A DNA stretch of 34,374 nucleotides, taken from the NCBI GenBank assembly GCA_018883385.1, contig VEQD01000011.1:1-34374 (forward strand), in the 5' to 3' direction. The position numbers and the translations under genes were made by a program. This DNA comes from Rhodocyclaceae bacterium (lineage in GTDB: Bacteria > Pseudomonadota > Gammaproteobacteria > Burkholderiales > Rhodocyclaceae). The notes under the pieces were generated by a model. That model made no database searches and was not told the DNA's origin. It worked only from the letters and a program-made list of their open reading frames with translations. Shown here piece by piece: positions 8,746 through 13,183 of the stretch (its first letter is position 1; every line of letters starts with the position of its first letter).

Positions 8746-9237
8746 TCAGTAGCTGGCTGTTCGCAAGTCAGCCGTAGAGACTGATACGCGCTGCTGTTTC
8801 TGCATGAACTCGAGTAGAACAAAGCTGCGTTGCTCGCCGTCAGCGATTTCAAAGACCCCTTCCAATCCGACCAGGGGCCCGCTCACGACTTGGACAGCAT
8901 CACCGGCGGCAAAAAGCGTTTCTTTGATTTCCTGCGTCCGCGCTCGAATCGCCTCAATGACCGGATCCGGCACCGCCGCATAGGTCTGACCAAAGCGCAC
9001 CATACCGGCAACCCCCAAGGTTGACCGAATTGGCCCCCAATTGTCGTTACCTTCTTCCAGATGTAGAAACAGATAACGTGGAAAAAGCGGCTCCAGTCTC
9101 TTGAGCAACTTTCCACGCTGCAATCGTTCCACCTCGATCAACGGTAGGTAGGTCTCATAACCCTGGCGCAATAGGTTTTCCAGCGCCCGCGCTTCGTTGC
9201 GGGGTTTGCTTTGAACCAGATACCAGGTGCGCGCCAT
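8746..9237 (-). CDS. rfaH: RfaH-like transcription/translation factor (NusG paralog)
   Basis: ARTWYLVQSKPRNEARALENLLRQGYETYLPLIEVERLQRGKLLKRLEPLFPRYLFLHL ... STLGVAGMVRFGQTYAAVPDPVIEAI plus a KOW-like C-terminal domain. This is the RfaH rather than NusG pattern. Confidence 0.88.
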   Translation of the reverse strand: MARTWYLVQSKPRNEARALENLLRQGYETYLPLIEVERLQRGKLLKRLEPLFPRYLFLHLEEGNDNWGPIRSTLGVAGMVRFGQTYAAVPDPVIEAIRARTQEIKETLFAAGDAVQVVSGPLVGLEGVFEIADGEQRSFVLLEFMQKQQRVSVSTADLRTASY

Positions 9238-9289
9238 AGTGATGCATTTTAACCATACTCACTTTTGCCCTTCCAACCCATTGATTTGC

Positions 9290-9318
9290 TTGACGCAAAC
9301 CGCTTCGACCCGTATTGT
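9290..9318 (+). promoter_or_regulatory. Predicted sigma70-type promoter for the metH leader
   Basis: TTGACG (9290-9295), a 17-nt spacer, then TATTGT (9313-9318). The predicted start is near 9325, just before the aptamer-like element. Confidence 0.55.
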
Positions 9319-9337
9319 TTCGGCTTGGCAAGCTTGC

Positions 9338-9400
9338 CACGCGCCGATTTGAGCTCCTCAGCTTGCGGGCGCGCTTACAAATACTGCTAAAGCGATGGGA
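9338..9400 (+). promoter_or_regulatory. SAM-II-like riboswitch aptamer in the metH 5' leader
   Basis: CGCGCC (9340-9345) pairs perfectly with GGCGCG (9368-9373). GATTTG (9346-9351) follows the 5' strand. GCTTGC (9361-9366) precedes the 3' strand. Downstream is AAATACTGCTAAAG with GCTAAA at 9386-9391. The order P1-GAUUUG-CUUGC-P1'-AAA-GCUAAA is the SAM-II (metA) architecture as I recall it. CAG 9359-9361 can pair with CTG 9384-9386 as a pseudoknot. Confidence 0.6.
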
Positions 9401-9408
9401 TGCCAAAC

Positions 9409-9448
9409 ACCCGCCGCTGCAGCCCCGCTGACCGGCGGGTTTGTTTTT
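9409..9448 (+). terminator. Intrinsic terminator/attenuator in the metH leader
   Basis: ACCCGCCG-ctg-CAGC-ccc-GCTG-ac-CGGCGGGT followed by TTGTTTTT, ending 15 nt before the metH ATG. No other + strand gene lies closer than the M20 gene ending at 8726. Confidence 0.75.
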
Positions 9449-9463
9449 AAGAAGACGTTGGTT

Positions 9464-13183
<3,720 letters not shown>

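Follow-up and report, generated by a model that had tools for sequence, protein, structure and literature searches.

The window, which is the complete 34,374-nt stretch of DNA that was analysed (contig VEQD01000011.1, assembly GCA_018883385.1), originates from a Rhodocyclaceae (betaproteobacterial) MAG. It carries a gene for cobalamin-dependent methionine synthase (metH), preceded by a leader with a divergent, rfaH-like gene upstream. MetH scored 2099 bits against NF007024 (cut-off 1497), and the MetH of the closest named relative (L031) is 92% identical; by homology, the gene downstream of the leader is a true metH. The following features were located:

9290-9318, forward strand: sigma-70-type promoter (TTGACG 9290-9295, 17-nt spacer, TATTGT 9313-9318)
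9331-9411, forward strand: SAM-II (SAM_alpha) aptamer, full-length match to Rfam model RF00521
9340-9373, forward strand: P1 stem, CGCGCC 9340-9345 with GGCGCG 9368-9373, loop L1 being GATTTGA ... CAGCTTGC
9386-9394, forward strand: GCUAAAGCG, 3' strand of P2 that doubles as the 5' strand of the antiterminator when the leader folds the other way
9384-9422, forward strand: predicted antiterminator helix, CUGC/AGCG/UGGG/UG with CA/CCCG/CGCU/GCAG (-15.6 kcal/mol, z -2.95)
9410-9448, forward strand: intrinsic terminator from folding, CCCGCCG 9410-9416 with CGGCGGG 9433-9439, plus UUUGUUUUU
9424-9439, forward strand: nested, antiterminator-compatible hairpin from a pattern scan, CCCGCU-GACC-GGCGGG (-9.2 kcal/mol)
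9464-13183, forward strand: metH, cobalamin-dependent methionine synthase (NCBIfam NF007024)

P1 encloses GATTTGA and GCTTGC, and AAATACTGCTAAAG occupies 9379-9392. The U-tract TTTGTTTTT follows the terminator stem and extends to 9448, 15 nt before the metH ATG (9464). The terminator fold (9405-9444) had a predicted energy of -20.0 kcal/mol (z -2.90). Promoter, P1, GATTTG...GCTTGC, terminator and 15-nt gap had all been named in an original prediction made from the letters alone, and each was recovered where it had been placed. The pattern scanner selected the nested 6-bp hairpin at 9424-9439 rather than the longer terminator, whose own 3' arm and U-tract this hairpin uses. The promoter pattern occurred once, versus 0.2 expected in shuffled sequences, and its hexamers were kept among congeners while the spacer between them diverged. 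More broadly, 95 of 123 leaders had TTGAC no more than about 100 nt 5' of P1, as compared to 35 of 600 control windows (78 nt).

A cmscan of positions 9150-9550 (401 nt) against all of Rfam matched RF00521 (SAM_alpha, which is SAM-II) at 9331-9411 on the forward strand with 31.4 bits and an E-value of 2.1e-5, while no other SAM class, including SAM-V, and no SAH or cobalamin model matched this segment up to E = 10; SAM_alpha was the sole meaningful Rfam match. The gathering cut-off of RF00521 is 36 bits, which the leader does not reach, and a whole-window Rfam scan at the cut-offs listed nothing. Four congeneric metH leaders scored 40.6 (L005), 36.2 (L008), 36.0 (L010) and 35.7 bits (L009), three of them reaching the cut-off, so that close homology to the metH leaders of its congeners brings the leader in the window into SAM-II. 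When aligned to the Rfam consensus, it showed the nucleotides conserved as unpaired or as part of the ligand pocket (GAUUUG, GCUUGC, AAAU and GCUAAA). Across 30 aligned leaders these were invariant or nearly so, with GCUAAAG invariant and GCG nearly invariant, and GATTTG, GCTTGC and GCTAAAG followed the SAM-II order.

A score under the curated cut-off might also come from an unrelated attenuator, from SAM-V or SAH as another sensing class, or from resemblance by chance, and the family search gave weak matches in unrelated control genomes too. Given that none of the other classes matched up to E = 10, that the three motifs are conserved in SAM-II order in the 30 aligned leaders and that congeners pass the cut-off, such an explanation is very improbable. 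As judged from these model scores and alignments, the SAM-II identity of the leader is statistically real and the leader very probably encodes a SAM-II riboswitch, with SAM as its presumed ligand on the basis of class. Weak second SAM_alpha matches (17-22 bits) in the genome of the window (G000) and in congeners lay inside the dnaK coding sequence and were rejected as chance. The same genome also holds an SAH riboswitch (G000:C59:2706-2777) that scored 54.1 bits, above its cut-off, which indicates that SAM and SAH sensing coexist.

A local covariance model (R1) was built from 30 well-aligned leaders. Its score for the window (76.2 bits, E 1.6e-19) is that of one of its own 30 building sequences; this leader was the only convincing copy that R1 found in its genome. 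Of 300 genomes sampled from the order, 237 carried the motif in the R1 search. By tblastn, 39 of 132 distinct leaders preceded metZ, 33 metX and 23 metH; the downstream ORFs of the remaining leaders, read by eye, included four metK genes and six metN-like ABC ATPases. Judged by position (95 of 132 at metZ, metX or metH), these SAM-II leaders would control methionine and SAM genes in cis. Ten of 80 named metH loci carried the motif, namely those in the genus of the window, two Accumulibacter, two Methyloversatilis, one betaproteobacterium, two Undibacterium, Polynucleobacter and Noviherbaspirillum. In the window's genus, metX and metZ each lie at most a few tens of bases from the gene before them, and no SAM-II leader was found in front of either. 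SAM-II is common but under-annotated in betaproteobacteria, and the RF00521 cut-off misses many of its members there.

Several other arrangements were observed during this survey. As read by eye from N-terminal sequence, SAM-II-type leaders stood right before ORFs for metK (SAM synthetase; L135, L136, L200, L222), a gene which, according to Leyn et al. (PMC4239095), is not under a known methionine regulator in betaproteobacteria. Leaders with a very short P1 and junction, also identified by eye, preceded metN-like ABC transporter ATPases (L167, L169, L171, L177, L189, L197). Tandem SAM-II-like elements, ~90-170 nt apart, occurred in several genomes of the order (L130, L156, L223, L229; G040, G089, G152, G174), in some cases followed by a short ORF that begins MFDCL or MYDC; SAM-II in tandem has been described previously (PMC9481103).

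The two strands of P1 coevolve (5.48 versus 5.01 pairs of 6, with 0 of 2000 permutations as high). Its outer pair varies between CG, AU, GC and UA, and in the first 30 leaders the stem is nearly frozen as GCGCC/GGCGC. The pseudoknot core P2a (CAGCUUGC/GCUAAAGCG) is complementary and mostly invariant. In a register-based test of P2b, the first pair alone covaried (z 4.3), without extended covariation, and the leader in the window has a C.U mismatch in the tested register. With P2a mostly invariant and a single covarying pair in P2b, the assignment of pseudoknot P2 leans, in this analysis, on class and not on new covariation among these leaders. Covariation of both P1 and the pseudoknot had been put forward originally as a way to check the prediction; it was borne out for P1, and within the pseudoknot it was confined to that one P2b pair.

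Terminators were found 3' of 118 of the 132 leaders, as compared to 32 of 260 control windows (12%). In the ligand-free minimum-energy fold, CUGC, AGCG, UGGG and UG of 9384-9402 pair with 9408-9422. Because this antiterminator occupies both GCUAAAGCG, the P2 strand, and the terminator 5' arm, it excludes P2 as well as the terminator. Nearest-neighbour folding, which leaves pseudoknot and ligand out of account, assigned about 0.8 of the ligand-free ensemble to the antiterminator and 0.17 to the terminator in the window, and on folding the arrangement was kept in four congeners. Because same-locus control terminators were few (20), dinucleotide shuffles and permuted probes served as controls for complementarity instead. 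A perfect 9-bp complement of GCUAAAGCG was present in the terminator region of 18 of 117 leaders (0.92 in dinucleotide shuffles, maximum 3), and the mean GCUAAAGCG duplex energy was -7.89, versus -5.87 ± 0.13 kcal/mol, about 15 standard deviations below shuffles. The predicted GCUAAAGCG target overlapped the terminator 5' arm in 97 of 117 leaders, with strong complementarity (duplex <= -7 kcal/mol on the 5' arm) in only 57 of the 117, and 2 of 200 permuted 9-mers scored as low as the real core. Sequence comparison and folding thus point to a linked terminator and a mutually exclusive antiterminator, as in a transcription-attenuating riboswitch.

A SAM-II aptamer could also regulate differently, with the P1 3' strand (GCGGGCG) as the antiterminator strand (cf. 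Leyn et al., PMC4239095). GCGGG is complementary to CCCGC of the terminator arm, and a GCGGGCG probe paired better with leader terminators than with the 20 control terminators (p 9e-4); however, GGG-CCC matches are expected of GC-rich terminators generally. Since this arrangement must break a 6-bp, all-GC P1, whereas the predicted fold favours the P2-strand antiterminator with P1 retained, it is considered quite unlikely. Alternatively, the terminator may be constitutive or act via the nested hairpin, which lies directly 5' of the U-tract and does not clash with the antiterminator, the aptamer then mainly tuning RNA stability or translation. Incoherent regulation has been reported for Sinorhizobium meliloti metA and metZ (PMC9373788), and for metA of S. 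meliloti no dependence of the terminator on SAM was predicted. This explanation is hard to reconcile with an aptamer-strand complement in the terminator arm that is far above shuffles. Moreover, neither aptamer nor terminator reaches the metH start region (9449-9466), so that direct masking by P2 is impossible. Overall, it appears unlikely.

In the preferred reading (probability about 0.85), the metH leader is a riboswitch of the SAM-II class that works as a transcriptional OFF switch, with SAM as the presumed ligand and with the direction of switching and actual termination as predicted from sequence and folding. RNA polymerase would start near 9325 and P1 would form. At low SAM, GCUAAAGCG-AUGGG (9384-9402) would pair with the emerging terminator 5' arm (9408-9422), and the resulting antiterminator would allow transcription of metH. 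At high SAM, the ligand would sit between L1 and the P2 strand and lock GCUAAAG into the pseudoknot; the 5' arm CCCGCCG would then be free to form the terminator, and the transcript would be cut at ~9448. The covariance-model match, P1 covariation, conserved promoter and terminator, and competing antiterminator support the original proposal that a SAM-II-type riboswitch drives a transcription attenuator before metH. Against the OFF switch count the score of the window below the Rfam cut-off, the restriction of pseudoknot covariation to the first P2b pair, the nested 6-bp hairpin, a caveat particular to this genus, which could terminate with the antiterminator formed, and the limits to 5'-arm complementarity given above (57 of 117 leaders; two equally low permuted 9-mers).

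A terminator-linked SAM-II on a betaproteobacterial metH had initially been regarded as less typical. This view is contradicted by the motif's presence in 237 of 300 genomes and by earlier work: a legend in Corbino et al. (2005, PMC1273637) lists Bordetella bronchiseptica, outside the alphaproteobacteria, and the same paper notes terminators after many SAM-II copies, while Barrick and Breaker (2007, PMC2258182) report that in alpha- and betaproteobacteria SAM-II stands alone among the classes in being associated most often with transcription terminators. The leader looks functional, and its unusual features are metH as the target and the explicit antiterminator; having a terminator is not unusual. 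A search of non-subscription literature found no publication on SAM-II before metH. With the leaders described here, the SAM-II regulon comes to include metH in Rhodocyclaceae and in certain other betaproteobacteria, and a specific, testable antiterminator is now proposed for this class, whose influence on gene expression had received little study (PMC9373788).

Compared with the metA motif from which SAM-II is known (RF00521; PMC1273637), these leaders share the layout of P1 and a predicted pseudoknot, the motifs GATTTG, GCTTGC and GCTAAAG, a promoter just 5' of P1, a terminator between P2 and the ORF, and methionine genes downstream. They differ in a nearly fixed P1 (GCGCC/GGCGC), a fixed P2 core (CAGCUUGC/GCUAAAGCG), scores that for many members fall below the Rfam cut-off, and metH as a target. 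The SAM-II of S. meliloti metZ is similar in its predicted SAM-dependent terminator, which releases a short RNA (PMC9373788), but is alphaproteobacterial and precedes metZ, not metH.

Leyn et al. (2014, PMC4239095) found SAM_alpha only in Rhizobiales and Rhodobacterales, and described a betaproteobacterial terminator-antiterminator element, 'metXZ', as novel, not recognising it as SAM-II. That element has six conserved blocks, with a pseudoknot formed by blocks 1-4 and 2-6, and shares with the present motif its taxa, the genes metX and metZ and a downstream terminator. Since paired blocks, pseudoknot, terminator, genes and taxa all fit, the metXZ element as described there is probably the same RNA, and thus SAM-II. 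Another catalogued element, Bp2_Cand287, was reported as an sRNA near metZ/metX, with a cis-acting role in methionine metabolism suggested (Khoo et al., PMC3521395). Full-length matches to its Rfam family RF02424 (Bp2_287, 'Burkholderia sRNA') ran antisense to the SAM-II motif in Burkholderiales leaders upstream of metZ, with 204 bits at L201:498-326 (reverse strand) and 157 bits at L172:1428-1604 (forward strand); in the window, the match at 9428-9341 (reverse strand) reached 22 bits, below the cut-off of 70. By sequence, RF02424 corresponds to betaproteobacterial SAM-II leaders and their terminator in reverse complement; it is catalogued as an sRNA, on the strand opposite to that of a riboswitch. 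The SAM-II reading would account for the metXZ element, so far an orphan described as 'novel', as well as for an Rfam sRNA family assigned to the wrong strand. At slightly better than even odds, betaproteobacterial SAM-II may form a distinct subtype whose P1/P2 core is fixed and whose antiterminator strand is the ligand-contacting GCUAAAGCG itself. If true, this would explain the mutual constraint between the GCUAAAGCG strand and the terminator arms, and would unify SAM-II, the metXZ element and Bp2_287, which have been catalogued separately.
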